From: a virus
Length of the DNA: 34,917 nt
Virus record (IMG/VR): IMGVR_UViG_3300003877_000007
Coordinates: 1-34,917 of that record
Direction: 5' to 3' (one strand)
Shown piece by piece: positions 1,979 through 32,968 of this stretch (position 1 is the first letter of the stretch; each line of letters begins with the position of its first letter). The notes under the pieces were generated by a model. The model was not told where the DNA came from and did no database searches. It saw nothing but the letters and a program-made list of their open reading frames with translations. The position numbers and the translations under genes are program-made.

Positions 1979-2021
1979 AATACAAATATTGTATTGACAA
2001 TCAATAGATTAATGTTAGAGT
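1979..2021 (+). promoter_or_regulatory. Early promoter with operator, rightward
   Basis: A perfect dyad AATACA-AATAT-TGTATT (1979-1995) abuts a promoter. TTGACA (1994-1999) shares two bases with the dyad, the spacer is 16 nt, and the extended -10 is TGT-TAGAGT (-10 at 2016-2021). The geometry is the same as at 3675, 5736 and (minus strand) 32968. It drives the small early genes from 2045 and the replication genes. Confidence 0.75.
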
Positions 2022-2044
2022 TATAAAAAACAAAGGGGAATGAA

Positions 2045-2251
2045 ATGAAAGCGATAATTTTAGAAGCAAAATTAACAAGCGAAGGCCTATTTATTGAGTT
2101 AAGCGAAAAAGCAAATATTGAAGGTAGAGGAATGAAGTGTAAAAGTCATTTTATAAGTTTTGATAAATTAGGGAGATTATTGTTTAATCAACAATACGCT
2201 GATTGTAGTACCGTTTCAGAATTAAATAAGCATAGAAATTTGGGGAAATGA
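2045..2251 (+). CDS. Hypothetical early phage protein (68 aa)
   Basis: It starts MKAIILEAKL with a strong AAAGGGGA ribosome site 4-9 nt upstream, about 24 nt after the promoter. The composition suggests a compact, mostly beta N-terminal half. There is no membrane segment and no recognised domain. It is the first gene of the repressor-controlled rightward operon, and the next gene starts one base after its stop. Confidence 0.75.
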   Translation: MKAIILEAKLTSEGLFIELSEKANIEGRGMKCKSHFISFDKLGRLLFNQQYADCSTVSELNKHRNLGK

Positions 2252-2252
2252 A

Positions 2253-2558
2253 ATGGAACATAAAAACACAGACTTAAAAATGGCCGAACTTTATACAGAG
2301 CGAGCAAGCGGGGCCATTCATGAAGTGGAAATTAATAATGAATTTTGGCGAAAAAAAACAACTGGTGATTTTTCATCTGCCGTTAGATATAGAATTAAAA
2401 CGGAAGATTTATGTATGTACGCAGTTACTTTAAGCGGCAAAATAGAAGCAACTTTTGACGACGAAGAAAGCGCGGCGTCAATGGCAAAAAAGTATAAAAA
2501 ACATTTTAACCCAAAAGTAATTAAGCTTGTGATTGATAAAACGTGGTCGCAAAAATGA
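2253..2558 (+). CDS. Hypothetical early phage protein (101 aa)
   Basis: A soluble protein with a central basic and acidic mix (RYRIKTEDL, FDDEESAASMAKKYKK). No domain is recognised. Its stop overlaps the next start as ATGA (2555-2558), indicating translational coupling to the replication gene. Confidence 0.75.
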   Translation: MEHKNTDLKMAELYTERASGAIHEVEINNEFWRKKTTGDFSSAVRYRIKTEDLCMYAVTLSGKIEATFDDEESAASMAKKYKKHFNPKVIKLVIDKTWSQK

Positions 2559-3022
2559 ACGCAAACGACACATATAAGCTTTTGAGCGCTTTTATTGATG
2601 CAGTTGGTTATGATATCGAAATTGATAAAACAATCCCTGGAGAACTTATTTTTAGCGTTAGCAAGCGTAAAAAGGAGCGCAGCAGCAAACAAATACAGGA
2701 TAATGATGAGTTTACCGAGTTTTATAATAATTACAAAAAGAAAGTTTGCAGGCCGTTAGCGCTTAAAGAGTTTTTAAAGCTAACAAAGTCTGAGCGAATT
2801 TTAATGCTTAATGATTATAAGACAAGGTTTAAGTACACTGAAAAATACCTAGTGCCAAAACCTCACAATTATATAAAAAATCGGGAGTTTATGGATGAAA
2901 GAATTGAGCGAAGTGGCAAAAAATCAAACGGCGAAAATGTCAAATCAAAATTGCAGAAAATCGCACACGACTACAAAAACAGCGGAAAATCTCGATTTAG
3001 CTTTAATAGCGGCAATACTTGA
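2555..3022 (+). CDS. Putative replication protein, lambda O-type C-terminal domain (155 aa)
   Basis: The segment from about residue 50 to 115 has the pattern seen after the winged helix in many phage replication initiators: F-x-x-F-(Y/W)-x-x-Y-x-x-K near the start (FTEFYNNYKKK), a helical middle, and a P-x-P-x-x-(Y/W)-(I/L)-x-x-x-x-(F/W) ending (VPKPHNYIKNREFMDE). The N-terminal 50 residues are too short for a full initiator domain, so this may be a reduced O-like protein. ATG 2555 is chosen over the upstream 2543 frame because it overlaps the previous stop (ATGA). It pairs with the P-like gene that starts inside it. Confidence 0.6.
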   Translation: MNANDTYKLLSAFIDAVGYDIEIDKTIPGELIFSVSKRKKERSSKQIQDNDEFTEFYNNYKKKVCRPLALKEFLKLTKSERILMLNDYKTRFKYTEKYLVPKPHNYIKNREFMDERIERSGKKSNGENVKSKLQKIAHDYKNSGKSRFSFNSGNT

Positions 3023-3341
3023 TGCATTTAGTGACAGATATTTAAACCGGTTTACAAATCAGATAGCCGGTCGAGAAATGGATGTGGCACAAGAGTGGTC
3101 CAAAGAGTTGGCCGGGTTAACTGATGAGCAAATAAAAGTAGGTATGACTTGGTGTGATGAGTGGCCACCCGATGTTTACTCGTTTAAACGGCATTGCTTG
3201 GGCGTCAACGGTGATAACTTGCATAACAGCGATGCGTACAAGATACATGATAAATCTAGGCTTTTAGGGTCAGTTAAGGCGACAAAGTCAGCATCTGACA
3301 AGCAAATGATTAAAATAAATAAAATATTGGGAGTTAAATAA
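2895..3341 (+). CDS. Putative replication protein P-like helicase loader (148 aa)
   Basis: The region from about residue 35 to 100 reads as AILDAFSDRYLNRF...AQEWSKELAGLTDEQIKVG, followed by WPPDVYSFKRHC. That is the order seen in lambda P-family proteins: helical domain, an aromatic/WxxxL stretch, 'I-x-x-G' and a 'P-P-x-x-F-x-x-x-C' ending. These proteins recruit host DnaB to the phage origin. ATG 2895 has GGGAG 7 nt upstream. It gives a 128-nt overlap with the preceding gene in another frame; ATG 2937 would shorten this but lacks a ribosome site. The N-terminal 30 residues are low complexity and may simply reflect the overlap. Confidence 0.6.
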   Translation: MKELSEVAKNQTAKMSNQNCRKSHTTTKTAENLDLALIAAILDAFSDRYLNRFTNQIAGREMDVAQEWSKELAGLTDEQIKVGMTWCDEWPPDVYSFKRHCLGVNGDNLHNSDAYKIHDKSRLLGSVKATKSASDKQMIKINKILGVK

Positions 3342-3342
3342 T

Positions 3343-3687
3343 ATGAGCTTATCATGTGAGTGCAGTAATTATGATTCTGACTGGTATTATTATAATGCGG
3401 AAAAATATACTACTTTACAAACAAAAAAAAGAGAACAATGCGTAAGCTGTGGAGTTTTAATAAATATTGGTGACATTGTAACTAGCCATTATTGCTTTAG
3501 AGACCCAAAAAGTGAACTCGAAGAAATTACGTGCGGTACTGAGGTTGGAATATCAGAAAAATATCATTGCGAGAGCTGCTCAGACATCGAATTTAATTTA
3601 TTAGAGCTTGGTTTTTGTGTTCAAATTGGGGTAGATATGAGGGAGTTAATAGAGGAGTACAAAAGAGAGTATTTAATACAAAAATAG
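3343..3687 (+). CDS. Cys-rich zinc-binding-type phage protein (114 aa)
   Basis: It contains paired cysteines CVSCG (about 33-37), a single C at about 51, C near 64 and HCESC (about 75-79), with CEC at the N-terminus. This suggests one or two zinc sites. No catalytic motif is visible. It starts one base after the stop of the P-like gene, so it belongs to the replication operon. Similar Cys-rich small proteins are common in phage early regions, but no named family was recognised. Confidence 0.7.
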   Translation: MSLSCECSNYDSDWYYYNAEKYTTLQTKKREQCVSCGVLINIGDIVTSHYCFRDPKSELEEITCGTEVGISEKYHCESCSDIEFNLLELGFCVQIGVDMRELIEEYKREYLIQK

Positions 3688-3717
3688 TATTGTAATAAAC
3701 TGTGACTATGCTAAAGT
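3675..3717 (+). promoter_or_regulatory. Early promoter with operator, rightward
   Basis: The dyad AATACA-AAAAT-AGTATT (3675-3691, 11 of 12 consensus bases) abuts TTGTAA (3690-3695). After a 16-nt spacer comes the extended -10 TGC-TAAAGT (-10 at 3712-3717). The dyad begins inside the end of the upstream coding sequence. It drives the 3745 and 4056 genes. Confidence 0.65.
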
Positions 3718-3744
3718 TACATAACAATAAAAAAGGGGTTTAAG

Positions 3745-4035: not shown

Positions 4036-4055
4036 AAAAACAAAGAGGGTTTAAA

Positions 4056-5276: not shown

Positions 5277-5540
5277 TTAAATTGTGATTAGATACATCAT
5301 TGATATTGATACAGCAATAAGGGATATCGCAGAAAATATTATTAATGTGCGCTCTAATGTGCTAAATACGCTTTTATTTTGTTTGCTTTTAACTTCAAAT
5401 CCACCGCCGCCTGTTCTGCGCTGGTATCCTTTTCTGCGATCACTCTCACGGCGGCAATATCTAATATCTTCAACAGGTCTCAAGGTATGCTCATAGCCTA
5501 TATTTCGAGCCTCTTTTATGTCTTTTTCTAATTTTGTCAT
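5277..5540 (-). CDS. Small membrane-anchored phage protein (87 aa)
   Basis: A basic cytoplasmic N-terminal part (CRRESDRRKGYQRRTGGGG, about 29-47) is followed by one strongly hydrophobic C-terminal segment (about 65-86). It looks like a tail-anchored inner-membrane protein. The start has GAGGG upstream and lies 4 nt after the stop of the 43-aa gene at 5545-5676. It is transcribed against all neighbours from an operator-controlled promoter. Superinfection exclusion or immunity is a reasonable guess from size and topology but is not demonstrated. Confidence 0.7.
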   Translation of the reverse strand: MTKLEKDIKEARNIGYEHTLRPVEDIRYCRRESDRRKGYQRRTGGGGFEVKSKQNKSVFSTLERTLIIFSAISLIAVSISMMYLITI

Positions 5541-5544
5541 GGTT

Positions 5545-5676
5545 TTACCCTCTTACGATTGTTAGTGTCACCAACGCGGCGACTATTATTAAAGCTGTAA
5601 TAACGTCAATAAGCGACATTACGTTATCTGTTTTGCTTAAAATTATCTTGTTTAGTTTGATTAAGTTCTTATGCAT
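5545..5676 (-). CDS. Very small membrane protein (43 aa)
   Basis: It reads MHKNLIKLNKIILSK..., then a hydrophobic stretch (SLIDVITALIIVAALVTLTI) and a short basic end. AAGGAG lies 6 nt upstream of the ATG at 5676, and the next gene begins 4 nt after its stop. A single-pass membrane peptide is likely. It forms a two-gene unit with the 87-aa protein. Confidence 0.7.
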   Translation of the reverse strand: MHKNLIKLNKIILSKTDNVMSLIDVITALIIVAALVTLTIVRG

Positions 5677-5696: not shown

Positions 5697-5724
5697 ACTA
5701 TAATACATTAATTGTATTTGTCAA
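5697..5724 (-). promoter_or_regulatory. Leftward promoter with operator in its spacer
   Basis: On the minus strand TTGACA (5719-5724) and TATAGT (5697-5702) are 16 nt apart, and that spacer is filled by the dyad AATACA-N5-TGTATT (perfect, 5702-5718). A protein bound here would block polymerase directly. It drives the 43-aa and 87-aa membrane genes. Confidence 0.75.
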
Positions 5725-5735: not shown

Positions 5736-5778
5736 AATATAAAAATTGTATTGACTATTTATCCTGTTATGCTAGTAT
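5736..5778 (+). promoter_or_regulatory. Rightward promoter with operator
   Basis: The dyad AATATA-AAAAT-TGTATT (5736-5752) abuts TTGACT (5751-5756). The spacer is 16 nt, with the extended -10 TGC-TAGTAT (-10 at 5773-5778). Its centre is 34 bp from the neighbouring dyad of the divergent promoter, about three helical turns. It drives the 5830-9185 cassette. Confidence 0.75.
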
Positions 5779-5829: not shown

Positions 5830-6255
5830 ATGAGTGATTTTTATAAAAACGCAAACATAGAAACAGTTGAGGAGTTTTGCCATCGCGCTATTGATGGCGA
5901 GGTTTTTTATGATAGAGAGATGTCAAAAGTATATTTTAATGATACTTTTTTTAAGCAAGGCCTTCTTTCGCCATTTATTATAAGGAACAGCGGAAAAAGA
6001 GAAGAAAAAGAATTAAGAGGATTATTTGATCTTGCTTTTTTCAAGGAACTAAGAGTCAAAGTTGAATGGCACGAAAATTTATCAAAGAATTATCAGCCGT
6101 TATGCTGGGTGTCAAAGGAATACATAGAGCAGCAAAGAACTGGTAGTTTAATAGCAAGAATTACTGGTAAAAATAAAAATGGTGAATTTGCATCAAAAGA
6201 CGGGTGCCTCTATTCTTTTGCTCAGCCAATTAATGTAAGTGAGCTAGATAAATAA
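5830..6255 (+). CDS. Phage hypothetical protein, paralogue family copy B (141 aa)
   Basis: Homologous to the 90-506 product. Shared features are HRAIDGEVF (about 19-27) against HRMLDGEIF, CWVS near residue 95, ITGKNKNGEF near 115, and a C-terminal AQPI. The middle of the two proteins is strongly diverged. There is no signal or membrane segment. The ATG follows AGAGGGGGT. It is the first gene after the operator-controlled promoter at 5736 and heads a cassette of envelope-type genes. No function is known. Confidence 0.8.
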   Translation: MSDFYKNANIETVEEFCHRAIDGEVFYDREMSKVYFNDTFFKQGLLSPFIIRNSGKREEKELRGLFDLAFFKELRVKVEWHENLSKNYQPLCWVSKEYIEQQRTGSLIARITGKNKNGEFASKDGCLYSFAQPINVSELDK

Positions 6256-6286
6256 AACATAAAAACCAAATAAAGAGGGTAAAATC

Positions 6287-6916
6287 ATGATGGCTCAACA
6301 GAAAACATTTTTAATTGTCGGTATTTTAATGATATTTTTGTTTCTTTTTGTCGGGTGCAAAAGCAGCGGCGGCGGGGATGTAGGAGCGGCGGCTATTGAA
6401 GCAAATATACTGGCACCAGACCCAGCAAACCCAGTAGATGGGCCAAAAGACCCCGCAAGACCCGTAGAATCAACTCCAAACCCGCCTCAAGGGTTTAATG
6501 ACTTAGTTATACACGTAGAAATAGTTAGGGGCATGGGGTTTTTAAAATCTAAGCAAGAATACAACATTAGGTTTTTTGAATATCAAAACATGTTTGAAAT
6601 CTACGATCATGAATCGTATCTTATCTCGTCAGGCAGTTATTCGTATGACGCAATATTAAATATCGCAATTATTACTGTAAACGATAGTAGATTCGGCGAG
6701 GGCACAATGCTGTTTAATTTTGATGATAGCATTAGCGGAAAATTTAGCTTAGAAGTGTCACCAGCCCCAGGATATAGCATTACAGATTGGCAACGTGGGC
6801 TTTTCCGAATCGAACAGGATGAGCCTGAAGTTGAAGAAGTAGACATAGTTGAGCAAGAATTAAACAATGAACACGACGAAAGCGAAGAATTAGAACATAA
6901 TAACGCAAATGATTAA
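6287..6916 (+). CDS. Phage-encoded lipoprotein (209 aa)
   Basis: A hydrophobic signal (residues 7-22) ends in a lipobox, FVGC, with Cys24 (Cys23 if the second ATG is used) followed by KSSGGG, a typical flexible linker. The absence of Asp at +2 predicts outer-membrane sorting. A Pro-rich linker (about 43-68) leads to a beta-rich domain (70-175) and a very acidic tail (about 180-209). It lies downstream of copy B with GAGGGT before its ATG. A cell-surface role such as conversion or exclusion is inferred from localisation. No homologous family was recognised. Confidence 0.75.
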   Translation: MMAQQKTFLIVGILMIFLFLFVGCKSSGGGDVGAAAIEANILAPDPANPVDGPKDPARPVESTPNPPQGFNDLVIHVEIVRGMGFLKSKQEYNIRFFEYQNMFEIYDHESYLISSGSYSYDAILNIAIITVNDSRFGEGTMLFNFDDSISGKFSLEVSPAPGYSITDWQRGLFRIEQDEPEVEEVDIVEQELNNEHDESEELEHNNAND

Positions 6917-6930
6917 ACTAAGGTGTAAAA

Positions 6931-8457
6931 ATGAGCTTTTTAAAACATAACGGAAATGCAATATCTAAAATTGACTTAACTCATATAACTGATTCAAAGC
7001 AGCTTTTAATGCATGTGTGGATTAAGGTGGATAGCATAACAAATGAAACGAGTTATATCTATGATCAAAACGCCTCTAGTCGTTGCTACTTAAGGCTTAA
7101 TTCAATTGAAACCAGCACGGGCAGAAAGGCTATTTTTAGTTTTTATGCCCGTAGCTTCGACAGAACGGATATAGCTGATATTGTTGGTGCATTTTATATT
7201 GACAAAAGCTCTGAATTTGTTGCAGTTGACATTTTTATTGATACAAATACAGGTCTTGCAAACATGTACGTGAATCTTGATTTGTCAAAGTCAGTAATTT
7301 CAAAATTAAATGAAGATATTTTCCATCAATCAACTCTAGCGTCAATTGGCATGCGCACCGACGGTTTTAAGCATGTAGCCGATGGAACAATAATAGATCA
7401 GCTTTACTACTCTAATGTAATACCTAGCGAGTATCTTGATGCAAACGGGTATATTACACATAAGTTTATGCGTGATTTTTATGATTTTGACGATGAAAAT
7501 AATTTAAAAATTAAACGCGAGTCACTACAGCTTGTGGGCTCGCCATCATTTTTATTTGAGGGCTGGCATGAAAAGTTTAGTACTGAAAAAATTACAGGAA
7601 AAATAGCGGAAATTACTGATATTCTTTATAAGAATAATTATAAAGATAATATCAAAAAGTTTGAAGGTAGTGATTTATTGGCATTTACTCAGGATAGGCC
7701 ATCATATTTAGACTTTGAAAAACATGGAATTAAAAACGATTTTGCATATTCAAGCGGATCATTTTTTAATGCTCCAAAGGATCGCACAATACAAGAGTTT
7801 TTAGCAATACTAGATTCTACGCTTATTTCTGACGTCAATCTGATGGACGAACAGCGCCGAGTTAGAGATACAAACACACACTTATTGCTAGATATTGAGT
7901 TTGCGCTACAGTCTGATAAGTTTGCTGGGTATATAGCAGATGAAAATATAGATCACATTGAAGTATTTAGAAAAATCAAAGTAATGATTGACGAGGTTAA
8001 GCGTTTGTTTCCCAATAAAATTATTGGTATTTACGGCTACATGCTGCCAAACGGCTCATCTACTTTTGATAGCTTAGAGCCACAAGCCGCCTCAATCCGT
8101 ACGGCTGCGGCTACAGGAATGCTTGATAATGTAGACGTGCTTTGGTCTGTAGTGTATTTAAGATTTGGGCCAACAGACAGCAATTATAACAAGATAATAC
8201 CGCAAACAGATGCCAGTATACGCAAAGCAAAGACAATTTTTAAATCAAACGGGGAAGAATTTAAGGTCGGTGCGTTGTATTCACAGCGTGTCATTAATTC
8301 AGATTCAGTTACAAATCATAAAAATGAAATATTAACTCAACCGGTAATTGAGCAACGACAATTAGTAAAAAATTATGATTTTGATGTTTTTGAAGGAGTG
8401 TGGGATAGTGATTGCGTAAAAGCTGGATTTAAGTGGTTTAAAGGCGTAAGCAACTAA
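6931..8457 (+). CDS. LamG-like lectin fused to a TIM-barrel-like glycosidase (508 aa)
   Basis: Residues 1-210 align by eye with the whole 25612-26337 product: YIYDQ-x-(A/S)S-(S)R-x-Y near 42-54, GT-(I/M)-(I/V)-DQ-x-YYSN-x-IPS near 152-166, FYDFD near 183, and SL-x-x-x-G-x-P...LFE near 198-210. This is a concanavalin/LamG-type jelly-roll. Residues about 255-500 have alternating strands and helices with LLLDIEF (318-324; Asp321 and Glu323 could be catalytic), IGIYGY (365-370), DVLWSVVYL, VGALYSQR and GVWDSD (489-494), compatible with a (beta/alpha)8 hydrolase. It lacks a signal peptide. It could be a polysaccharide-degrading receptor-binding protein. The glycosidase assignment is inference. Confidence 0.6.
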   Translation: MSFLKHNGNAISKIDLTHITDSKQLLMHVWIKVDSITNETSYIYDQNASSRCYLRLNSIETSTGRKAIFSFYARSFDRTDIADIVGAFYIDKSSEFVAVDIFIDTNTGLANMYVNLDLSKSVISKLNEDIFHQSTLASIGMRTDGFKHVADGTIIDQLYYSNVIPSEYLDANGYITHKFMRDFYDFDDENNLKIKRESLQLVGSPSFLFEGWHEKFSTEKITGKIAEITDILYKNNYKDNIKKFEGSDLLAFTQDRPSYLDFEKHGIKNDFAYSSGSFFNAPKDRTIQEFLAILDSTLISDVNLMDEQRRVRDTNTHLLLDIEFALQSDKFAGYIADENIDHIEVFRKIKVMIDEVKRLFPNKIIGIYGYMLPNGSSTFDSLEPQAASIRTAAATGMLDNVDVLWSVVYLRFGPTDSNYNKIIPQTDASIRKAKTIFKSNGEEFKVGALYSQRVINSDSVTNHKNEILTQPVIEQRQLVKNYDFDVFEGVWDSDCVKAGFKWFKGVSN

Positions 8458-8481
8458 TTTTTAAACAAAAAAGAGGGTAAC

Positions 8482-8862
8482 ATGATATATAAGATATTGA
8501 TTATAATGTTAATTGCGTCGGCTGCAAAATCTGAAGTATTAGAGTTTTCTTTTGTTGAAGGAACGCAATTTACAATATTTTGCGATAAACCGACTAACTT
8601 TATTGGAGGCGAGAAAATAACATCTAGTGTTAAGCTTAATTTATATAATCTCAAATTTAACCCGCTTGTTTGGGTAAAAAAGGCAACAAGCGATAGTTGT
8701 GAGTTTGATCTAAATCAATTTTTCGAGCAGGGCAGCAAGTTTTTTTATGTATCTGCAGAAGTTAATGGCGTTGAGTCTGAGCCTTCGCAAATTGCAATAA
8801 TTGAAGTAATAAGCAAGCCAGATGCAGTAATTTTATTTCCAGGGGGGTGCATAGCAAAATGA
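8482..8862 (+). CDS. Secreted Ig/FnIII-like protein (126 aa)
   Basis: Residues 1-17 form a signal-like stretch (KILIIMLIASAAKS) with a plausible cleavage near AAKS-E. The rest is beta-rich, with a YVSAEVNGVESEPSQ pattern typical of fibronectin-III or Ig-like strands and two Cys that could form a disulfide. It starts after GAGGGT and overlaps the next gene by ATGA (8859-8862). It probably acts in the periplasm or at the cell surface with the neighbouring lipoprotein. Confidence 0.65.
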   Translation: MIYKILIIMLIASAAKSEVLEFSFVEGTQFTIFCDKPTNFIGGEKITSSVKLNLYNLKFNPLVWVKKATSDSCEFDLNQFFEQGSKFFYVSAEVNGVESEPSQIAIIEVISKPDAVILFPGGCIAK

Positions 8863-9185
8863 GCGATTTAAACATTAAAAACACGCTTAAGTTAATTAAA
8901 AACTTTAGTGAGGGTAAAGACTGGTGTACTAATTTCCCAGACAAAATTTTTAAATACGATTTTAGGCTTGCTTGTTTGCTGCATGACATACAGTACACAG
9001 CAAAAAACAATTTAACCCGGGTGCAAAAGCAGGTGCTTAGTGCGAATGGTCGCGATCATTCAATGAGCAGGGAATACGCTGATTACGACTTTAAGCACGA
9101 TTTAAAAGGTATGGGGCCGTGGTATTTTAGCCTTATGATGTGGGCAGCTGTTAAGGTTTTCGGTGGTAGATATTGGCGGCTTTAA
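8859..9185 (+). CDS. Protein with C-x-x-x-HD-x-x-Y motif, DUF1353/PLA2-like (108 aa)
   Basis: Residues 39-46 read CLLHDIQY, and R71-E-Y-A-D-Y-D-F lies about 25 residues later. A Cys/His-Asp/Tyr block followed by R-x-x-AD-x-x-F is seen in small phage proteins of DUF1353 type and recalls the His-Asp dyad of secreted phospholipase A2. The C-terminus (AAVKVFGGRYW) also fits DUF1353. ATG 8859 is chosen because AGGGGGG lies 11 nt upstream and the start overlaps the previous stop; GTG 8847 would sit inside that site. Enzymatic activity is not established. Confidence 0.6.
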   Translation: MSDLNIKNTLKLIKNFSEGKDWCTNFPDKIFKYDFRLACLLHDIQYTAKNNLTRVQKQVLSANGRDHSMSREYADYDFKHDLKGMGPWYFSLMMWAAVKVFGGRYWRL

Positions 9186-13808: not shown

Positions 13809-14540
13809 ATGAGTGATGAACTTTTAGACGAAATGTTTGAATCAGAAGCAGACAACTTAATTGTTGATGAAGTTGAGCAGGTTGAACAAGTTGAAACGGC
13901 TGAAGAAGAAACAGCGCCAGCGGCTGAAACAAGCGAACAACCTGATATTGATAATTCAGGTAATGATTCGGTAGCTAAACAAATAGAGGCTTTTAAAAGC
14001 GCCGCCTTAAGCGAAAGAAAAAAGCGGCAGGCTTTAGAGGATCAAGTCAGAAGCATGCAAGAGCCGGTTGAGAAGCCAGACGCTTACATGGCCCCAGATG
14101 AAGCTATTGAACATGCTAATAAGCAATTATCAAACGATTTTACAGCAAGATTATTAAACATGTCAGAGTCTCAAGCAAGACTTAGACATGCTGATTTTGA
14201 TGAAATGAACGATGTTTTTTCAAATTTATCAGCGGATAACCCGCATTTAGGCCAGCAGGCTTTAAATGCGCCTGACCCGTATGAATTTGTTTATCAAGAA
14301 GCTAAAAAACATTCTGAATTTTCTCAAATTGGCTCTGTATCTGATTATAAAGCTAAAATTGAAGCGGAAATTAGAGCTAAAATTGAAGCGGAAGCAAACG
14401 AAAAAGCTAAAATTGAAGCGGAAAACGCTATAAATGCAGCGTTGCCGCAATCACTTGCAGACAGCACGGCTATCGGTGGAAATTTACCTGCAGAAACATC
14501 TGCAATAACACTTGATAGTGCATGCATAAACGATTTTTAA
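13809..14540 (+). CDS. Scaffolding protein (243 aa)
   Basis: Very acidic N-terminus (residues 1-55 are Glu/Asp-rich), a helical middle with KSAALSERKKRQALEDQV, and a Lys/Glu/Ala C-terminal helix with three AKIEAE repeats (about 182-205). Composition, size and position between portal and coat identify it as the internal scaffold that guides coat assembly and is then released. AGAGGA lies 8 nt before the ATG. Confidence 0.8.
   Translation: MSDELLDEMFESEADNLIVDEVEQVEQVETAEEETAPAAETSEQPDIDNSGNDSVAKQIEAFKSAALSERKKRQALEDQVRSMQEPVEKPDAYMAPDEAIEHANKQLSNDFTARLLNMSESQARLRHADFDEMNDVFSNLSADNPHLGQQALNAPDPYEFVYQEAKKHSEFSQIGSVSDYKAKIEAEIRAKIEAEANEKAKIEAENAINAALPQSLADSTAIGGNLPAETSAITLDSACINDF
14352..14423 (+). 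repeat. Three 18-nt in-frame repeats inside scaffold
   Basis: GCTAAAATTGAAGCGGAA occurs exactly at 14352-14369, 14376-14393 and 14406-14423, encoding AKIEAE three times. The 24- and 30-nt spacing keeps the frame and the helical charge pattern, so copy number could change by slippage without breaking the gene. Confidence 0.85.
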
Positions 14541-14566
14541 AATATATTACTATCGGGAGATAGCAA

Positions 14567-15682: not shown

Positions 15683-15721
15683 ACTTTCAATCACAGGGAT
15701 GTGATAACCGAGGGGTAACGA

Positions 15722-19276: not shown

Positions 19277-19279
19277 AAA

Positions 19280-19288
19280 TGCTAAAAT
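19280..19288 (+). promoter_or_regulatory. Possible extended -10 promoter before gp14-like gene
   Basis: TGC-TAAAAT (-10 at 19283-19288) lies in the 50-nt gap, matching the 9901 element. It could provide internal transcription of ejection and tailspike genes. Confidence 0.35.
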
Positions 19289-19326
19289 AAGGCAACTGTC
19301 GTGATGATAGATAAAGAGCATAAAAC

Positions 19327-20933: not shown

Positions 20934-22153
20934 TGGCAGCACTTGATACTTTTTTAGCGCAACAACAGGCTCCTAACGTTTTAGGCGCCGTAAACCGTGG
21001 CATTGCTACAAATAACTTGCAGCAATTAAACGCGCTAAAACTAGCGCAGGCACAGCAGCAAGCGCCATTACAAAACCAAGCCCTACAAGACAGAGTCGAT
21101 TTATCAGGCTTGAATCTTGATAATGCTCGTCAAAATGCACCGCTAAATACACAGTCTTTGCAAAATAAATTGCTATCACAAAACCAAAATTTACAATTAG
21201 GCGAGCAAAGAAAGCAAATAAATCAGCAAAATTTAGAACAAAATATTAGTGCTGAAGAAAAAAGCAGAATTGAAAATTTATTTGTTTTAACGTCAGATTT
21301 AATTGGAGACACCACAGATGAAGGCGAGTTTGAAAGCCTAATAAATAGCGCTACTTTTTTAGATGATGAGGCGAAGCAATTTGCTTTACAATTTGGCGCT
21401 GAAAAAATACGAGAAGTCGGTAAAAGGCTAAAAGGGCAAACTGATAAAAATGATAGGGTTGTTAAATCGTTAATAAACGACGATGGCTCAGTGGTTTTAG
21501 TTAGGGCGCAAAGCGGCGTACAAGTTATTCCAGCAAACGAGGTTGACTCTGAAATTTTGGCCCAGGCCAGGGAGTTTGATGTTGAAACTAAAAAACAGAA
21601 AGCACAGGCAAACCAGCTAGGCTCTGACACGGCTAAATTTGCTACCGATGCATTTAAGCAAGTAGCTAATATAAATAAAAATATACTAAATTTGCGTGAA
21701 GTTATTAAAACCGTTGAAGTTGATGGCGCGAATACCGGCCCACTTGATAAGAGATTACCTTCAATTACATCGGCAGCAGTTAAGTTAGATAACTTGGCTG
21801 GAAGGCTAGGACTTGACGTTGTAAGCGCTACAACATTTGGCGCGCTGTCAGAAAGCGAGCTGGCATTTGCAATAGACACGGCTTTACCCGCTGGATTACA
21901 AGGGCCAGAGCTAGTTAAGTGGGCAAAAGATAGAATAAATGCCCAAGAAAAACTTGCAAAATACTTGAATGAAGCAGCCCAATTTGCAAGCCAGCCAGGA
22001 AACACAGTAGCTGATTTTATGGCAAAAAAACAAGCCGAAAAGGATGCTTCAAGCGCTCAAGCGCAGCCACAAGCGCAGCAACAAAGTGATTTTGTGCCTA
22101 GCTCAGCACAGCCGTTTAGCGTTGGCCGTTTTGAAGTAAGGATTAAACAATAA
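20933..22153 (+). CDS. Ejection protein, gp20-like (406 aa)
   Basis: The first 100 residues are Gln/Asn/Leu-rich (LQNQALQDRV, LNTQSLQNKL), similar in composition to the preceding protein. A helical domain (about 105-380) follows, then a Gln/Ala/Pro tail. No enzyme motif is visible. It is translationally coupled on both sides. Confidence 0.7.
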   Translation: MAALDTFLAQQQAPNVLGAVNRGIATNNLQQLNALKLAQAQQQAPLQNQALQDRVDLSGLNLDNARQNAPLNTQSLQNKLLSQNQNLQLGEQRKQINQQNLEQNISAEEKSRIENLFVLTSDLIGDTTDEGEFESLINSATFLDDEAKQFALQFGAEKIREVGKRLKGQTDKNDRVVKSLINDDGSVVLVRAQSGVQVIPANEVDSEILAQAREFDVETKKQKAQANQLGSDTAKFATDAFKQVANINKNILNLREVIKTVEVDGANTGPLDKRLPSITSAAVKLDNLAGRLGLDVVSATTFGALSESELAFAIDTALPAGLQGPELVKWAKDRINAQEKLAKYLNEAAQFASQPGNTVADFMAKKQAEKDASSAQAQPQAQQQSDFVPSSAQPFSVGRFEVRIKQ

Positions 22154-24243
22154 TGCCTGTATTTGAAGTCACAGACCCAAATACAGGTATTACGCTTGAA
22201 TTGACCGGAGAAACCCCGCCAAATGAGCAAGAATTAAATCAAATATTTTCTTCTTTGCCGCAACAAGGCCAGCAATTTAACGCGAACCAGTTGCAACAAG
22301 CGCAGCAAATTAGCGCAGAGCCACAACCACAAAACAATGATTTTAGGCAGCAAATTAATGATTTTATACTTTCCGCCCCGGGCGGGCCTGAGGTAGCAGA
22401 ATTTGGGGCAGCCGTATCAAGAGGTGCTACTGATTTAGCTGACTTTTTTACAACAAAGCCCGTTAATGCGGCGTTAAATTTAGTCGGTTCTAACTCTCGA
22501 TTACCAGAATTAACAGACAAAGCAAGTGCGGCAACAACCGGAAATTTTTTAGAAAACGGCCTTAAAAAAGACATTATTAGGGGCGCAGGAGAGGCCATAC
22601 CTGGCGCTGTCGCATTTGGGGGAGCATTAAGGCAAGCAGCAAGCTTAATACCAAAAGCAGCGGAATCTGCAGCCAATGTAGGCGCCAACATAATTAAGCA
22701 ATTAGGGGCCACAACTGCCGCACAAGATGCAGGCTTTGCCGCAATATCTGGCGCCGGCTCTGAGGTAGGACGTGCAACGGAAATACCGGGCGGCGAAGTT
22801 ATAGGCGCGTTTCTTGCCCCAGTTGCCGCACTAACTACAGCTACAGCGGCTAAAAAAGGAACTGGCACAGTAATAAATGCGATAAAAAACGGCAAAACCG
22901 GTATAAAAGCATTATTAACGCCAGCCAAAGGAATTTCTAAAAATGGAGCTAAAACGCTTTTAGCTGAAGCAATGGTGCGCGAGGGGATAACCCCGCAGGA
23001 AGCAGAGGCGGCATTTAAAAGCCTTGGGCCTGATGCAATACCGGCAGATTTAGGAATAGCATTTTCTAAGCTCTTGCGCGAAGCTGGAAACCGTTTTCCG
23101 GTGATTGAAGGTGGAGCAGCTAAACTATTTAGGGCGCGACAAAGCAAGCAGGGACAAAGAATATTAAATTCATTAGATGATGCAAGCGGCACGTCTTCGT
23201 TGAATATAGACGATGAAATAGCTAGGCTAGATGCTGTTTTAAAGCCTCAAATTAACAAATTATATAACGAGGCAAAAAGCCAAAATATACCGTTAAGCAA
23301 AAGACTTCAAGGCCTTTTCGATGGTGATTCATCGCTTGCAAAAGCAAGAAAAAAAGCAAATCAAGAGCTTATTGATGTAGCGGCAGCAAAAGGCGAGGAA
23401 ATAGGTAATTCTTCAATAGAAATAATTGATGCGACTAAGCAAGTATTGGACGATCAAATTAGTGCAGCAATTAGAAAAGGGAAAAACGGCAAAGCATTTA
23501 ATTTAATTAATTTAAAAAACACAATGCTAAAAGAAGCTGACGAGAATGTTCCAAGATACAGAGAGGCTAGGGACCTATATGCCGGAAAAAAATCTTTAGA
23601 AGCAGCGGGGAGAATGGGCGAGGACTTTTTTAAAATAAATGCCGTTGATATACCTAAATTAGTTAGAAGCATGGGTGAATCAGAGCGTAATATTTTCATT
23701 TTAGGTGCAAAGCGAGCTATACTAAAAAAAGCAGATAGCTTGCAAGATAACGCCAACGCGGTAAAAAGGCTTTTTGGGAAAAATGGAGATACTAAAAAGT
23801 TACGGTTTTTATTTAGAGACCCGAAGGATTTTAAAAAGTTTGATGATACGCTAAACAGAGAAAGCCAGTTTATTTTAACTAGAAATTCAGCCCAGGGGAA
23901 TTCCACAACAAAAGGCCAGTTTGATGAAGGCGATAATATAGAGCTTGCATTTAGAACCGCAATAGATGCAGGTGCAGGCTCGCCAGTGTCAATAATTAGA
24001 AATTTAACAAGTAGATTGTCTGGCGATAAGTCACAAAAGCAATTTACAGATGCTTTAAAGGATGCTGGCGATATTTTATTGACAAAAGGTATGGAGCCAG
24101 GCCAGATATCAAAGCTTTTAAGGTCAGAAGACGACAAAGCAATAATTAAAGCACTGAAAAAATTTATAAATAGAAATAATGTAAAAGGTTTTGAAGCCGC
24201 AAGATTATCAGAATCAACTCAAGAAGCATTTAACGATAAATAG
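22153..24243 (+). CDS. Large ejection protein, gp16-like (696 aa)
   Basis: A short beta start with FEVTDPNTGITLELTGETPP, then a Gln-rich linker, then a Gly/Ala-rich membrane-active region (about 70-260, including VIGAFLAPVAALTTATAAKK) and a long helical Lys-rich C-terminal half. The hydrophobic middle without a signal peptide is typical of injected proteins that enter the inner membrane. Antisense frames of up to 317 codons here are by-products of Ala/Gly codons. Confidence 0.7.
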   Translation: MPVFEVTDPNTGITLELTGETPPNEQELNQIFSSLPQQGQQFNANQLQQAQQISAEPQPQNNDFRQQINDFILSAPGGPEVAEFGAAVSRGATDLADFFTTKPVNAALNLVGSNSRLPELTDKASAATTGNFLENGLKKDIIRGAGEAIPGAVAFGGALRQAASLIPKAAESAANVGANIIKQLGATTAAQDAGFAAISGAGSEVGRATEIPGGEVIGAFLAPVAALTTATAAKKGTGTVINAIKNGKTGIKALLTPAKGISKNGAKTLLAEAMVREGITPQEAEAAFKSLGPDAIPADLGIAFSKLLREAGNRFPVIEGGAAKLFRARQSKQGQRILNSLDDASGTSSLNIDDEIARLDAVLKPQINKLYNEAKSQNIPLSKRLQGLFDGDSSLAKARKKANQELIDVAAAKGEEIGNSSIEIIDATKQVLDDQISAAIRKGKNGKAFNLINLKNTMLKEADENVPRYREARDLYAGKKSLEAAGRMGEDFFKINAVDIPKLVRSMGESERNIFILGAKRAILKKADSLQDNANAVKRLFGKNGDTKKLRFLFRDPKDFKKFDDTLNRESQFILTRNSAQGNSTTKGQFDEGDNIELAFRTAIDAGAGSPVSIIRNLTSRLSGDKSQKQFTDALKDAGDILLTKGMEPGQISKLLRSEDDKAIIKALKKFINRNNVKGFEAARLSESTQEAFNDK

Positions 24244-24250
24244 GTGAAAT

Positions 24251-25615
24251 ATGTCTGATTTTATTAATATAACAAAATTTGGTGAAGTCGGACTAGGAAA
24301 CGATGATTCCGATGTTTTCAATCTCGCGCTATCAAAAATAAAAGATGGGCAACGGATAAATTTGCCGTATGACTTGGAATACAATATAAATAAACCGCTT
24401 ATAATGCCCGACAAGTCTATAGAATGGACTATTGGTGGAGTTGAAGGATCGCGGCCAAGAATAAATTATACGGGCAACGGCCCAATGTTAAAATTCTTCG
24501 TTGAAGGGGCTGGGATAAGTAATGTAGAAATATTCGGAGATTATGCAACAAACAAAACAAGTAAAACAGTCGGTGTTCATTTCGACTGCAACTTGTCTTA
24601 TGCAAGCAGAGTTAAGTTAAATAATTTATTAGTTGGTGCTAAATTTACAAGCAATTGCTCAACTGATTTTGATGATAAAATAGATTATAAAAATAATAAA
24701 GTTGACTCTATTGTTGAGTCTAATTTACTGCCAGTTGTTAATATGCTATTTAATACAGGTCAGTCAAATTCGGATGAAAGCCCGGTTGGAGACACAGTAA
24801 TAACAATGGCCGAAGAAGGCGTTGAAAACCCAGTTTATTCAGAGAATCCTTTTCCTGGTACACCATTCCGGCAATGGGCAAGCAAGGCTGGATTTAAAGA
24901 ATTTATGGACGGCTCTGAGGACGTTAAAACTGTTACTTCCGTTAATACAAGCAACCCAAGAGCTGTATTTACTTCAGCAGGGCACGGATATGCGCCAACA
25001 AACTTTGTTATAATTTCAGGGGCAGACCAACCCGAAGCAAATGGTTTTTTCAGGTTATTTAATAGAGATACAAATACTTTTGAAATAACAGAAGAAACTT
25101 TGCAGGGTCTAACTATAACCGGAAACATAACGGTTAAACGGGCCGGATGTATTGAAAAATGGGAATACGATATTGACCAACAAATAATTGCAGGGAATCA
25201 AGTTAATATAATCGGTATGATGTACATGCAAGGAAACGGAAACTCAAATTTATCTGGCGCGCTATCAATAGAATGGGCAGCAGGCAGATATTTTGCTTTA
25301 TTACTAAAAGATTTATTTAAAAACACGTACGGAGCCAAAAACTCTGTAATTATAGACCCAGGCTTTGCGATATCATTTGGATTAACATCAAACCATGGTG
25401 GAGCAAACGACGACCCACAAAAGTTATTTGAGGCAAGACGTTATCAAATGGCCGCAACAAAGTATCAAGACGATGTTTATTGGGTTGATTCGATGACTGA
25501 CCAAAGAATCGCAGATGGCGTACATATCGCTGATATGACGCCATTCCACCGTGCGCAAATACGCAGCATACTTGATTTAGAAAACAAAACTTCACTAGAT
25601 AGGACACAAAAATGA
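24251..25615 (+). CDS. Tailspike with beta-helix start and SGNH/sialate-O-acetylesterase-like domain (454 aa)
   Basis: Residues 1-150 have the tailspike start 'I-x-x-FG-x-x-G-x-x-x-DD-x-x-x-x-x-AL' and short right-handed beta-helix turns. A GQSN motif (170-173) places Ser172 as the nucleophile, MQGNGN (326-331) supplies the oxyanion-type block, and DGVH (422-425) the Asp/His pair: an SGNH (SASA-type) esterase triad. A small inserted beta domain (about 220-305; FTSAGHGYAP...DTNTFEIT) resembles the E1-FCCH-like module found in phage tail proteins. It probably deacetylates a surface glycan of the host. Confidence 0.75.
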   Translation: MSDFINITKFGEVGLGNDDSDVFNLALSKIKDGQRINLPYDLEYNINKPLIMPDKSIEWTIGGVEGSRPRINYTGNGPMLKFFVEGAGISNVEIFGDYATNKTSKTVGVHFDCNLSYASRVKLNNLLVGAKFTSNCSTDFDDKIDYKNNKVDSIVESNLLPVVNMLFNTGQSNSDESPVGDTVITMAEEGVENPVYSENPFPGTPFRQWASKAGFKEFMDGSEDVKTVTSVNTSNPRAVFTSAGHGYAPTNFVIISGADQPEANGFFRLFNRDTNTFEITEETLQGLTITGNITVKRAGCIEKWEYDIDQQIIAGNQVNIIGMMYMQGNGNSNLSGALSIEWAAGRYFALLLKDLFKNTYGAKNSVIIDPGFAISFGLTSNHGGANDDPQKLFEARRYQMAATKYQDDVYWVDSMTDQRIADGVHIADMTPFHRAQIRSILDLENKTSLDRTQK

Positions 25616-26337
25616 GTATTTTACTTGATGGCTCAACATCTGTTAGAAACATTAACTTACTTGCTGTCCCGAATAGCGACCAAGTAATGATACACTTTTG
25701 GATTAACGCAGCAGACCCTCTAAACGGCGCACAGCAGTACATATATGACCAGTCGTCAGCGTCAAGATCGTACGTAAGAATTGATGGCACAGGTGGCACA
25801 CTTGGTAGAGTATTTGTTAACATAAAGGATAGCACACAAACCACTGTAATTAATATGGGCGCTGGTTTAGCGCTCCAGCCATCAAATGGGTGGATAGCGT
25901 TTGACTTTGTTTTAGATCAAACGCGCGGCTTTGCAAAAATTTACAGAAATTTAGTCCAAGTTGGGTCTGCAACTCCTGGAAACGCAAATCCGATAACGCA
26001 TATTGCAAGTGCGGCTGATTTATATCAGCGCGGTGATAATGCTCTGCCGCTGTTAAATGGGACAATGGTAGATCAATTTTATTATTCTAACGCAATCCCA
26101 TCTACTTATACAGATGATAATGGAAATTTAACCGCTGAATATATTAAGCAGTTTTATGAGCTTGATTCAAATGCTGATACATTTAGACGCAAAGCATCAT
26201 TATCAACAACCGGCACACCTATCATGCTTTTTGAAAATGATTTTACTAATGCAGGTCAAAATAACGGCTCAGAAGGCAATGGCACAGTTTTTGGCACACC
26301 GCAAGATACCACAGACAAAACATATATTTTGCCATAG
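25612..26337 (+). CDS. LamG/concanavalin-like lectin protein (241 aa)
   Basis: The whole chain matches residues 1-210 of the 6931-8457 product (YIYDQSSASRSY, then GTMVDQFYYSNAIPSTY, then a FYELD and LFE ending) and then adds a Gly/Asn-rich tail. It is a single jelly-roll domain. ATGA overlap with the tailspike stop argues that the two are made together. It may bind glycan beside the tailspike or decorate it. Confidence 0.7.
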   Translation: MSILLDGSTSVRNINLLAVPNSDQVMIHFWINAADPLNGAQQYIYDQSSASRSYVRIDGTGGTLGRVFVNIKDSTQTTVINMGAGLALQPSNGWIAFDFVLDQTRGFAKIYRNLVQVGSATPGNANPITHIASAADLYQRGDNALPLLNGTMVDQFYYSNAIPSTYTDDNGNLTAEYIKQFYELDSNADTFRRKASLSTTGTPIMLFENDFTNAGQNNGSEGNGTVFGTPQDTTDKTYILP

Positions 26338-26362
26338 CGATAACTAAGAGGGCGTTTTAGCG

Positions 26363-26827
26363 ATGGGTTACAGCGTAATACAGTTAAAAAAGGAAATAGT
26401 TGATCCTACGCTTAGATACTTCGGTATGTACTCGCCACAGGCCGTTAATTTGCTTCTTGGTACTATGGCGCAAGAGTCAAAGATGGGCGAGTACATTAAG
26501 CAGCTAGGCAACGGGCCAGCATTGGGCGGCTACCAAATGGAGCCTAAAACTCATGACTCACTTGTAAATAATTACATTGTTTATCGGGCTGAGATTGACG
26601 ATAAGTTCAAAGCCCTGGGATATGATAATTATGATGCACAACGGTTAAAATATGATTTGCAGTACGCAACTGTTTTCGCTCGTATAAAGTATTTGCCGGT
26701 GCCAAAAAAAATACCAAGTGATATTGATGGCATGGCCGAATACTGGAAAGACTTTTACAACACAAAAAGCGGGAAAGGGAAGGTTGAAGAATTTATAGAT
26801 AATTACGAAAAGTATGTAATCAAGTGA
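26363..26827 (+). CDS. Putative endolysin, lysozyme-like (154 aa)
   Basis: LLGTMAQESKMGEYIKQLGN (31-50), then GPALGGYQME (51-60), is a lysozyme/transglycosylase-like active-site region with Glu38 in AQES as the candidate catalytic acid and the GGYQM turn after it. Similar small proteins sit in lysis cassettes of phages. No signal peptide is present, so it would need a holin, which follows. GAGGG lies upstream of the ATG. Confidence 0.7.
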   Translation: MGYSVIQLKKEIVDPTLRYFGMYSPQAVNLLLGTMAQESKMGEYIKQLGNGPALGGYQMEPKTHDSLVNNYIVYRAEIDDKFKALGYDNYDAQRLKYDLQYATVFARIKYLPVPKKIPSDIDGMAEYWKDFYNTKSGKGKVEEFIDNYEKYVIK

Positions 26828-26862
26828 CTAATGTCGCTGACAAAAAAACCAGAGGGTAAATA

Positions 26863-27183
26863 ATGAACCAGAACGATATCGACATAAACTTTTTGGCATT
26901 ATTTATCGCCGGTTTTTGGGGCTTAATCCGAATAATTTTAAAGTTTGATTACAATAAAAACAGGGTAACTCAATTTGTTTTGCTTGTTGTAATCGCCATG
27001 CCCCTGGGATACATGAGCTATATTATTGTAAGCGACTGCGGGTTTTCGAAAGCCGCTTACCCGCTAAGTTTTATCGTTGGAAAGCTTAGTTTATCCCTTG
27101 CATCTAAATTTATGTGCGATAGCGTAACTGAGATATTTAAAAAGCTAGCAAAAAAGGACAAAACAAATGACAAAAGAAAATAA
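26863..27183 (+). CDS. Putative holin, multi-pass membrane protein (106 aa)
   Basis: Three hydrophobic segments at about 10-26, 37-58 and 65-82 with a Lys-rich C-terminal tail (KKLAKKDKTNDKRK): class I holin topology. It comes after the endolysin and overlaps the next membrane gene. No named holin family was assigned. Confidence 0.6.
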   Translation: MNQNDIDINFLALFIAGFWGLIRIILKFDYNKNRVTQFVLLVVIAMPLGYMSYIIVSDCGFSKAAYPLSFIVGKLSLSLASKFMCDSVTEIFKKLAKKDKTNDKRK

Positions 27184-27433
27184 AGCCGTTGAAATGCTTA
27201 TATTTTATGTGTTGGTCAGTTCAGCGATTAATATTATTGCTTTATTCATGGCGGCACCTTATATACGAGAATTTATTTCCATGAGCACGATTGATTTAAT
27301 TCTGTTTATATTTTTAGTCAACATGTCAGTAGTTTTATTTTTAAACGATATTTACCGGCATTTCAACTGCATGAGATATAAAGCGGCTAAGAAAAAAAAT
27401 AATAACGTGTACAAAAAAACGATGCACTGTTAA
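27167..27433 (+). CDS. Small two-span membrane protein of the lysis cassette (88 aa)
   Basis: Two hydrophobic segments (about 9-30 and 40-60) and a Lys/Asn-rich cytoplasmic end. It overlaps the putative holin by 17 nt and is last before a strong terminator. It could be an antiholin, second holin or spanin partner; there is no lipobox and no periplasmic coiled coil. Confidence 0.6.
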   Translation: MTKENKAVEMLIFYVLVSSAINIIALFMAAPYIREFISMSTIDLILFIFLVNMSVVLFLNDIYRHFNCMRYKAAKKKNNNVYKKTMHC

Positions 27434-27456: not shown

Positions 27457-27503
27457 CCGCGCCCCTTTGTTTTAGACCCTCTTTCTTTGGGGCGCGGTTT
27501 TTT
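27457..27503 (+). terminator. Strong rightward terminator after the late operon
   Basis: CCGCGCCCC (27457-27465) pairs perfectly with GGGGCGCGG (27489-27497), followed by six T. It closes the late transcript and overlaps the stop of the convergent antirepressor gene (27502-27504). The 23-nt loop is long for a terminator and has no ORF. Confidence 0.85.
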
Positions 27504-28188
27504 ACTCATTATCAAGATAATTCATATACCGCTCAGTTAGTTTAACCTTTCCCCGTGGTGTAATCATTAAAGTATAGCCATTTTTGCCGGTTTTATCGTT
27601 ATTCCAGGGCTTCCAAGAGAAATAGCCTAACTTAATATACTTTTGATATGGTTCATTGTTTTTATTTACATAATCATGGTCTCGCAGCCACTCATACATT
27701 TTGTTTTGACCTACATCAACAAAATCGACTGATTTACAAAATTCCCTTACTAAAATATTGCCTGCTTCAATGCTCGCCCGGTTAGTCGCAATAATTAAAT
27801 TATCTTTGTGCTCAAGTGACGCCTGTTGTTTTTCGATTATTTCTTGTTGGTCTGCAGCAAGGCGCAAAGCTTCGACGTAATTTTTAGGTATTTTTGGCTG
27901 ATTATCATTAGATGCTTTATTAACCCAGTACTCTGTTATCTGCCTTAAATATGATGAGTCACACAAGGCAACAAGCATTTTAGACTCAACCTCTGGTAAC
28001 AAGTAATAATCAACATAACCCCTTGAATCCATAGATGGTCGAAAATCTCGACCATCTATTTCTTTTGGAAATAATGATTTTATTTTCTCGTGCATGTGCT
28101 TTTTTTCGTAACCAAGCATTTTTGCTAGCTCGGTAGATGTCATGGCTTTGTTTGTTAATTGTTTTTTTGGTACAATAGATAAAGTCAT
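27502..28188 (-). CDS. Antirepressor-type protein with KilAC/ANT domain (228 aa)
   Basis: The N-terminal part (about 16-75) contains TSTELAKMLGYEKKHMHEKI, a Rha-type helix-turn-helix. A helical linker (about 105-135, QEIIEKQQASLEHKD) leads to a C-terminal KilAC/ANT domain (about 145-225) with the usual MYEWLRDHDYV...PYQKYIKLGYF and ITPRGKVKL blocks. Such proteins lift repression or lock lytic growth. AGGAG sits 7 nt before the ATG. It is transcribed leftward, apart from the other leftward operon, behind a palindrome at 28218-28247. Confidence 0.85.
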   Translation of the reverse strand: MTLSIVPKKQLTNKAMTSTELAKMLGYEKKHMHEKIKSLFPKEIDGRDFRPSMDSRGYVDYYLLPEVESKMLVALCDSSYLRQITEYWVNKASNDNQPKIPKNYVEALRLAADQQEIIEKQQASLEHKDNLIIATNRASIEAGNILVREFCKSVDFVDVGQNKMYEWLRDHDYVNKNNEPYQKYIKLGYFSWKPWNNDKTGKNGYTLMITPRGKVKLTERYMNYLDNE

Positions 28189-31199: not shown

Positions 31200-31219
31200 A
31201 TTTCCCCCTTGTTAGCTTA

Positions 31220-31248
31220 ACAATAATACATAATTTGTACTATTGCAA
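31220..31248 (-). promoter_or_regulatory. Leftward promoter with operator in its spacer
   Basis: On the minus strand, TTGCAA (31243-31248) and TATTGT (31220-31225) are 17 nt apart. The spacer contains AGTACA-N5-TGTATT (31225-31241, 11 of 12 consensus). This is the same in-spacer layout as the 5697-5724 promoter. It drives the 31199 to 28774 genes. Confidence 0.65.
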
Positions 31249-31259
31249 GTAATTAAATG

Positions 31260-31877
31260 TTATTTATTTCTTAAAAAATCAAGCGTATCATTCTTTATCA
31301 TATTTGTTTCAATTATCCGGTCTTTTAAGCTTTGTATTACCTTTTCGTCTCGATTAATTTCTATTTTTTTGCACGGCAAATCAGGATGATAAAAAAACAA
31401 ATCAGCAGAATCATAGTCGGATACAAGAAGTTGCATTTGAACCTGTGCGTAATATGACGTAGGGCATTTATTGTTAACATCTGTATAAATCAATGCCTTG
31501 GTATGATGTACCCCGCTTAAGCACTTTATTTCTAATGTTTTTTTATTATCAATAACACCATCTGGTGAAGAGCAGCACGTATTTAAATCATTAACCATGA
31601 TACCAACTTCAACAACATCAACATCATATATAAATTTATAGTAATCCCTTGCTTCTGGCTCTAATCCAGCTCCCCTGTTTGTGTGTTTATTGCCACCAAA
31701 TTCACCAGTTGATTTGCCGCAATAAATATCATTAGCAAGGTCTATTGCATAATCATTAAGTGACTCACTCTTTTTCCCTGTTGATGTTATTATCCTTTTT
31801 GCTGCTGATGCCGATGGCTTACCAAGCCGCACAGCCCACCATTCCATGGTGTACTGGTCAAAGTCATATATCTTCAT
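31260..31877 (-). CDS. YqaJ-type / lambda-exonuclease-family recombinase (205 aa)
   Basis: The N-terminal W-x-x-x-R-x-G-x-P-S-A-S block (14-24), RGAGLEPEA (68-76), SSPDG with Asp106 and LEIKC (115-119; Glu116, Lys118) are the PD-(D/E)xK residues of the YqaJ viral recombinase family. It resects double-strand DNA 5' to 3', giving 3' tails for the annealase encoded just upstream. It overlaps the ERF gene by ATGA. Full length for the family. Confidence 0.9.
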   Translation of the reverse strand: MKIYDFDQYTMEWWAVRLGKPSASAAKRIITSTGKKSESLNDYAIDLANDIYCGKSTGEFGGNKHTNRGAGLEPEARDYYKFIYDVDVVEVGIMVNDLNTCCSSPDGVIDNKKTLEIKCLSGVHHTKALIYTDVNNKCPTSYYAQVQMQLLVSDYDSADLFFYHPDLPCKKIEINRDEKVIQSLKDRIIETNMIKNDTLDFLRNK

Positions 31878-32605
31878 GATTTAACCTTATCTTTCAATGC
31901 ATTAATCATTCTGTCTGCATTTTTATCGAGTATTGAGTCAAGGTTATCGACTTTGGCAAACTTCAAAAACAAGGTTTCATCTGATTTTGTTGATTCAATT
32001 AGCGATTTAATTTCGTTTAGTTTTTTCCCTGAAATAAAGCAATCTGATAAAGATTTAGCATCATCGTCAATATTGCAAAACTGTGAAGATATTCCGGTCA
32101 CCGCTTCAAAAGTTTCTATTTTTAAATAAGTTCTCGTTGACTTTCTTTCTTGTAGCTTATTTTTTGCGCCAGACTTGTCAGGCAGGCCATTTAATTCTAC
32201 AAACTCAAAATGCCCGTCTTTATGTGTTAAAAAACAAGATACATATACAAGGTCTGGCTCATCTTTGAAATCCCACCTAGTTGTAAATCCAAATTTCGAC
32301 ATCTCCCTTGTTACTTTTGTTACTATATTTCCTATAGATGAATACGATGAATTGTACTGAGAATTAACAAGGTCTTTTACTATTTGCAAATCCACCTCTT
32401 TAAATCTCGCTAAATCCCTTGCAAAAGACTTTCTTGCCTCCTCATTGTCATACTTGATTTTAAGTTCAAGCAGCTTATCAATGTACTCAATACTGGCCCC
32501 TTGTGCAATCGCATTTTCAAGTAATCTATCCTGCAGTGTACCAACTTCATTTATTTTTTGTGTTGCAACAACTTCTGTTTTTTCGTGCTCGATTAACTCG
32601 CTCAT
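31874..32605 (-). CDS. erf: ERF-family single-strand annealing protein (243 aa)
   Basis: The core (about 45-180) includes FARDLARFKEVDLQIVKD, YSSIGNIVTKVTREMSKFGF, then LTHKDGHFEF and ERKSTRTYLKIETFEAVTGI, the order of the P22 Erf/ERF superfamily. It forms rings that anneal complementary strands, working with the YqaJ exonuclease. In P22, Erf circularises terminally redundant linear DNA on entry, which suits a headful-packaging podovirus. It overlaps both neighbours by 4 nt. Confidence 0.9.
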   Translation of the reverse strand: MSELIEHEKTEVVATQKINEVGTLQDRLLENAIAQGASIEYIDKLLELKIKYDNEEARKSFARDLARFKEVDLQIVKDLVNSQYNSSYSSIGNIVTKVTREMSKFGFTTRWDFKDEPDLVYVSCFLTHKDGHFEFVELNGLPDKSGAKNKLQERKSTRTYLKIETFEAVTGISSQFCNIDDDAKSLSDCFISGKKLNEIKSLIESTKSDETLFLKFAKVDNLDSILDKNADRMINALKDKVKS

Positions 32606-32892
32606 AGCATGCGCTCCTGACTTTCGTCATAGCCATCATCAATAGATTCAAGATTATTCATGTATTGTATAGAGTCATTTATTATATAATTTGTTACCTT
32701 GCTTAAAAGCATATTAGCGAGCTTTAAGCGCATTTTATCGGTAACCCTGATAGATGCCTCAATATCAACGATAAGCTGACCTATATCGTTGTCCTGCATT
32801 GACAAAACCTCCTTTGCCGCCTCGTTTACACTACCGGCATCAGCCATTTGTAAATTATAAAAGTCTTGTGCTTCTTTAGCATTTTTGCACAT
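32602..32892 (-). CDS. Hypothetical helical protein upstream of ERF (96 aa)
   Basis: An all-helical, acidic protein (KEAQDFYNLQMADAGSVNEA, then MRLKLANMLLSKV). GAGGGC precedes the ATG. First gene after the 32926-32953 promoter and coupled to erf. It could be a recombination accessory, but no family was identified. Confidence 0.7.
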   Translation of the reverse strand: MCKNAKEAQDFYNLQMADAGSVNEAAKEVLSMQDNDIGQLIVDIEASIRVTDKMRLKLANMLLSKVTNYIINDSIQYMNNLESIDDGYDESQERML

Positions 32893-32925
32893 TTTTTAGC
32901 CCTCTTTTTTGTTGTCGTTGTAAAG

Positions 32926-32968
32926 ACTTTAGCATGATTTTGCCTCGTGTCAATATAATAATTGTATT
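32926..32968 (-). promoter_or_regulatory. Leftward recombination-operon promoter with operator
   Basis: Reading the minus strand, the dyad AATACA-ATTAT-TATATT (plus-strand 32952-32968) abuts TTGACA (32948-32953). The spacer is 16 nt and the extended -10 is TGC-TAAAGT (-10 at 32926-32931). The geometry is identical to the rightward promoters at 1979, 3675 and 5736. It lies beside the divergent YdaS/Cro-like gene. Confidence 0.75.

Follow-up and report, generated by a model that had tools for sequence, protein, structure and literature searches.

Six copies of a 17-bp dyad, AATACA-N5-TGTATT, lie at positions 1979, 3675, 5702, 5736, 31225 and 32952 of a 34,917-nt viral sequence (the window, here always the whole stretch of DNA that was analysed), and they raise the question of which protein reads them and with what effect. 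A preliminary description had taken them for the operators of a phage repressor regulon, perfect at 1979-1995 and 5702-5718 and with one mismatch at 3675-3691, 5736-5752, 31225-31241 and 32952-32968; these coordinates and mismatch counts are all correct. The six operators make up five places, with 5702 and 5736 forming a divergent pair 34 bp apart, and the 3' end of the upstream ORF reaches 13 bases into the site at 3675.

Chance in AT-rich DNA is hardly a credible source of these dyads. Copies with two mismatches do occur within genes, but the six sites score 18.9 to 24.0 with a symmetric matrix built from them, against 12.2 for the best other position in the window, and with a leave-one-out matrix every omitted site scores above all non-sites. 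When up to one mismatch is allowed, seven copies are found in the whole window, compared with a mean of 0.25 in shuffles (maximum 2, n=200); the seven are also found in intergenic DNA alone, compared with 0.04 in shuffles (maximum 1, n=300). The AATACA dyad likewise heads an exhaustive ranking of 6-mer dyads with gaps of 2 to 9 (p 1e-7), with the runner-up (2.4e-5) more than a hundredfold behind. Equally good sites in genes or in shuffles, which the preliminary description had named as a refutation, did not turn up. The seventh one-mismatch copy (34335, AATACATGAAATTTATT) has a matrix score of 9.9 and no promoter, and was rejected as a chance occurrence.

The arrangement of the sites at promoters also contradicts chance. 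Promoters and start sites were predicted from consensus sequences, with the start taken 7 bases past the -10. At 1979, 3675, 5736 and 32952, the dyad begins 15 bases ahead of the predicted -35 in identical register, which places its centre at -41, and each of the four promoters has a 16-nt spacer and a TGT or TGC extended -10. Register, spacer and extended -10 had been described before and stand as described; the statement that the dyad abuts the -35 does not, because its final TT overlaps the -35 by two bases. The other two sites, 5702 and 31225, do lie within the -35/-10 spacer, as had been reported, and are centred at -20. A strong promoter-like sequence with no operator (TTGACA-17-TATAGT) is found at 33640-33668 on the plus strand, ahead of 33705.

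On the plus strand, the operator at 1979-1995 (AATACAAATATTGTATT) accompanies a predicted TTGACA-16-TAGAGT promoter (TGT) and the operon that begins at 2045, in which ORF 2543-3022 shows weak similarity to a replication initiation protein. To the left of this site, 1242-1709 encodes a polynucleotide kinase-type phosphatase domain (PF25109; phrog_415), and 780-1240 is a 460-bp stretch with no evident gene and, by eye, inverted-repeat-like sequence. The operator at 3675-3691 (AATACAAAAATAGTATT), with a predicted TTGTAA-16-TAAAGT (TGC), serves genes 3745 and 4056, and that at 5736-5752 (AATATAAAAATTGTATT), with a predicted TTGACT-16-TAGTAT (TGC), serves the 5830-9185 cassette. ORF 8847-9185 of this cassette weakly resembles prokaryotic phospholipase A2 (PF09056, E 6e-6, under the curated cut-off). 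The N-terminal regions of the products of 6931-8457 and 25612-26337 look alike by eye, and these may be related tail or surface proteins.

On the minus strand, the operator at 5702-5718 is inside a predicted TTGACA-16-TATAGT promoter for two small ORFs (5545-5676 and 5277-5540) that appear by eye to encode hydrophobic segments. The operator at 31225-31241 is inside a predicted TTGCAA-17-TATTGT promoter for the operon beginning at 31199, which encodes NinB/Orf, DUF968 and RusA and, at its end, an Ant antirepressor with a KilAC domain (27502-28188, minus strand). Finally, the operator at 32952-32968 (AATACAATTATTATATT on the minus strand), with a predicted TTGACA-16-TAAAGT (TGC), serves the minus-strand recombination operon, in which the first gene (32602-32892) is accompanied by those for an ERF-like annealing protein (31874-32605) and a YqaJ exonuclease (31260-31877). 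This last operator is the sole one adjoining the ydaS/cro gene (33033-33266, plus strand), 65 bp upstream of it.

The product of that gene, a 77-aa helix-turn-helix protein, is the proposed reader of the operators, and its earlier designation as YdaS/Cro-like is borne out by profile matches, phage Cro homology and predicted fold. It matches phrog_35 (transcriptional repressor) with E 2e-7 and YdaS PF15943 with E 6e-7, where its 29.6 bits fall 0.4 bits short of the curated cut-off of 30. The best phage matches are the Cro proteins of cdtI, SfV and SfIV (39% over 61 aa; E about 2e-6 for SfV/cdtI Cro in tblastn), and YmfT of e14 is almost identical to SfV Cro. The AlphaFold model (pLDDT 88), in which residues 40-42, YLR, lie inside helix 38-45, superimposes on YdaS of prophage CP-933P (8co2/8c7k) with TM 0.72 and rmsd 1.2 A, although at a weak Foldseek E of 0.04.

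The link between this protein and the dyad comes from its homologues. Cro of SfV, cdtI, e14 and Pseudomonas and Vibrio prophages, the closest of these, flank operators of the form TGTACC-N5-GGTACA, which have the same 17-bp length and the same spacing as AATACA-N5-TGTATT, with TAC and GTA in register. An inverted reading of the relatives' half-sites (TGTAC inward) was dropped, since positional alignment puts TAC in register. The shared portion of the half-sites is three of six bases (TAC), the outer bases being AA here versus TG there, and a random half-site would share TAC in register with a probability of about 0.02, estimated from base composition. The TAC-N7-GTA core is exact in the consensus and in four of the six sites; one arm of the operator adjoining ydaS reads TAT instead.

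A wider comparison ties the core to the recognition helix. A TAC-N6/7-GTA dyad accompanies 12 of 13 protein clusters with YLR but 2 of 11 without it (Fisher p 5e-4; 24 clusters, with N6 allowed beside N7 post hoc), and the clusters gathered after the rule was first noticed divide 8/9 versus 2/9 (p about 0.015, by hand arithmetic). The exceptions are one YLR homologue with no dyad (L109) and two non-YLR homologues with one; many non-YLR homologues (YLS, YLT, YLY, QLT, HLW) adjoin TTAGC/GCTAA-type dyads instead. A scan of viral loci that itself demanded YLR gave 80 loci representing 22 distinct proteins, of which 20 have a TAC-N7-GTA operator directly and one more by inspection; in the remaining case the end of the locus is too near the start of the protein for the operator to be judged.

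Because its homologues adjoin operators of equal length, spacing and core, the 33033-33266 product is the best candidate for the reader, and on these sequence grounds the six dyads are probably operators of the phage's own Cro/YdaS that set the output of its early promoters. A dimer would bind AATACA-N5-TGTATT, with the YLR-containing recognition helix reading the TAC/GTA core, and would control five early promoter regions (the replication-side operon; 3745/4056; the small ORF pair; the 5830-9185 cassette; the recombination operon together with the NinB/RusA/Ant operon). Its own gene is probably a target as well. The early promoters would be on at once after infection and would then be lowered while Cro builds up.

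The sign of this control is most likely repression, by analogy with CP-933P. The geometry could be read differently, with a single regulator activating from -41 at four promoters and repressing from -20 at two. Each of these positions is constant within its group, and -41/-42 matches a known activator position, the one used by lambda CI in activating PRM and by class II activators; a protein bound there could also touch sigma. Such dual action is nevertheless doubtful. Three of the -41 promoters have a good -35 and all four an extended -10, so that they should need little help, and the YdaS of CP-933P, a Cro analogue, represses PRM, PR and PL (PMC8630535). Slightly more doubtful still is the version in which the phage has no lysogeny repressor and Cro alone, at scattered single operators, activates at -41 and represses at -20.

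In the best-studied relative, CI and Cro use common operators, and so the site alone cannot say which kind of protein reads it. The main reader could instead be a CI-type repressor encoded outside the record (unassembled, recently lost, or belonging to another prophage or plasmid), with Cro using the sites too; the phage would then descend from a temperate ancestor and have turned virulent. Among the annotated relatives that were examined, both phages and plasmids, a gene divergent to cro is present and is in most cases labelled a repressor. Here that side of cro is occupied by the recombination operon, starting with 32602-32892, and neither a CI-type repressor nor an integrase was recognised in Pfam/PHROGs scans of all but about nine of the listed ORFs of a record that may be incomplete (the nine lie mostly among the structural genes, 13809-27433), yet a KilAC antirepressor is encoded. 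There is also a precedent, since the lytic mycobacteriophage D29 retains the stoperators of its temperate relatives after loss of the repressor (PMC5712189).

Two observations nevertheless make an outside CI-type reader unlikely. First, the operators look intact and uniform, which suggests that their reader exists today. Second, an exact 97-bp direct repeat (1-97 = 34167-34263) would join the phage into a closed genome of 34,166 bp, suggesting that it is complete with no CI gene. Past the repeat, 34264-34917 holds a second version of the 90-506 gene, shortened and frameshifted, and part of a large bacterial gene; the record is therefore either a chimera or an integrated copy, and bacterial DNA makes up its right end. 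The protein of 34455-34841 (minus strand) matches very large frames, which we take to be ChpA-like, at up to 35%. In sum, the earlier proposal of a phage repressor regulon has partial support: the family of the 33033 product and the operators of its homologues give good support to a regulon under that protein, but this record does not support the regulon of a lysogeny repressor, as no CI or integrase was recognised among the ORFs scanned.

A host transcription factor might in principle read the sites. This is very unlikely, because the Cro family of the phage itself already accounts for the operator core. The perfect motif also occurs 0 or 1 times per genome, with no excess over a reversed control, in 61 genomes of the order that contains the best ChpA-like match, a weak test in that the host may not belong to this order.

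Searches of viral contigs with the major capsid protein, terminase, ERF, YdaS and operator-promoter patterns yielded distant relatives only, and recurrence of the same site with the same protein in a close relative was not found by them. A scan of genome contigs gave a single terminase match (38%), and an exact operator-like match in L003 was rejected because it is located within an unrelated gene. Distant terminase relatives (L033 471-973, L043 3376-3900, L070 3070-4610) have repeated dyads of their own in two tight OL/OR-like clusters. The best terminase match, phage CBW1004C-Prop1 (MZ188970; 52%), has similar ERF/YqaJ and head-gene blocks, together with an integrase, a LexA-type repressor and, around the gene for the latter, two clusters of a repeated dyad, TATGGG-N4-CCCATA.

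Compared with known systems, the locus resembles the cI-cro regions (OL/OR) of SfV, cdtI and e14-type lambdoid prophages, with which it shares a YLR-bearing YdaS-family Cro, a 17-bp dyad with a TAC-N7-GTA core, and replication-side genes after cro. The differences are that their half-site is TGTACC (TG outer, C inner bases) rather than AATACA, that no cI is recognised divergent to cro here as it would be in a lambdoid temperate immunity region, and that their operators are clustered at cI-cro and beyond cI whereas here there are six single sites; genome-wide scans of SfV, D14E, Vibrio p42 and yong2 located the good operator copies at cI-cro and, past cI, in another cluster. The PaaR2-YdaS-YdaT region of CP-933P is alike in the YdaS fold and the Cro-like position, but its operators differ (half-site consensus GTTTAGTAA; PMC8630535) and it has CI (PaaR2) and CII (YdaT) analogues. 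The use of one regulator at many sites across the genome recalls the stoperators of mycobacteriophages L5/D29 and the C1 operators that are dispersed in phage P1. L5/D29 stoperators are asymmetric 13-bp sequences, about 24 per genome, mostly intergenic and for the most part away from promoters, whereas the six sites here are symmetric and all linked to predicted promoters.

On these comparisons the arrangement is probably a familiar phage control circuit in scattered form. The pairing of a YLR helix with TAC/GTA operators gives a large and poorly characterised family a recognition rule that can be tested. Studies of Cro have nearly always dealt with its competition with CI at clustered operators, and a phage in which Cro works from scattered single operators in the absence of CI would reveal the action of Cro alone.
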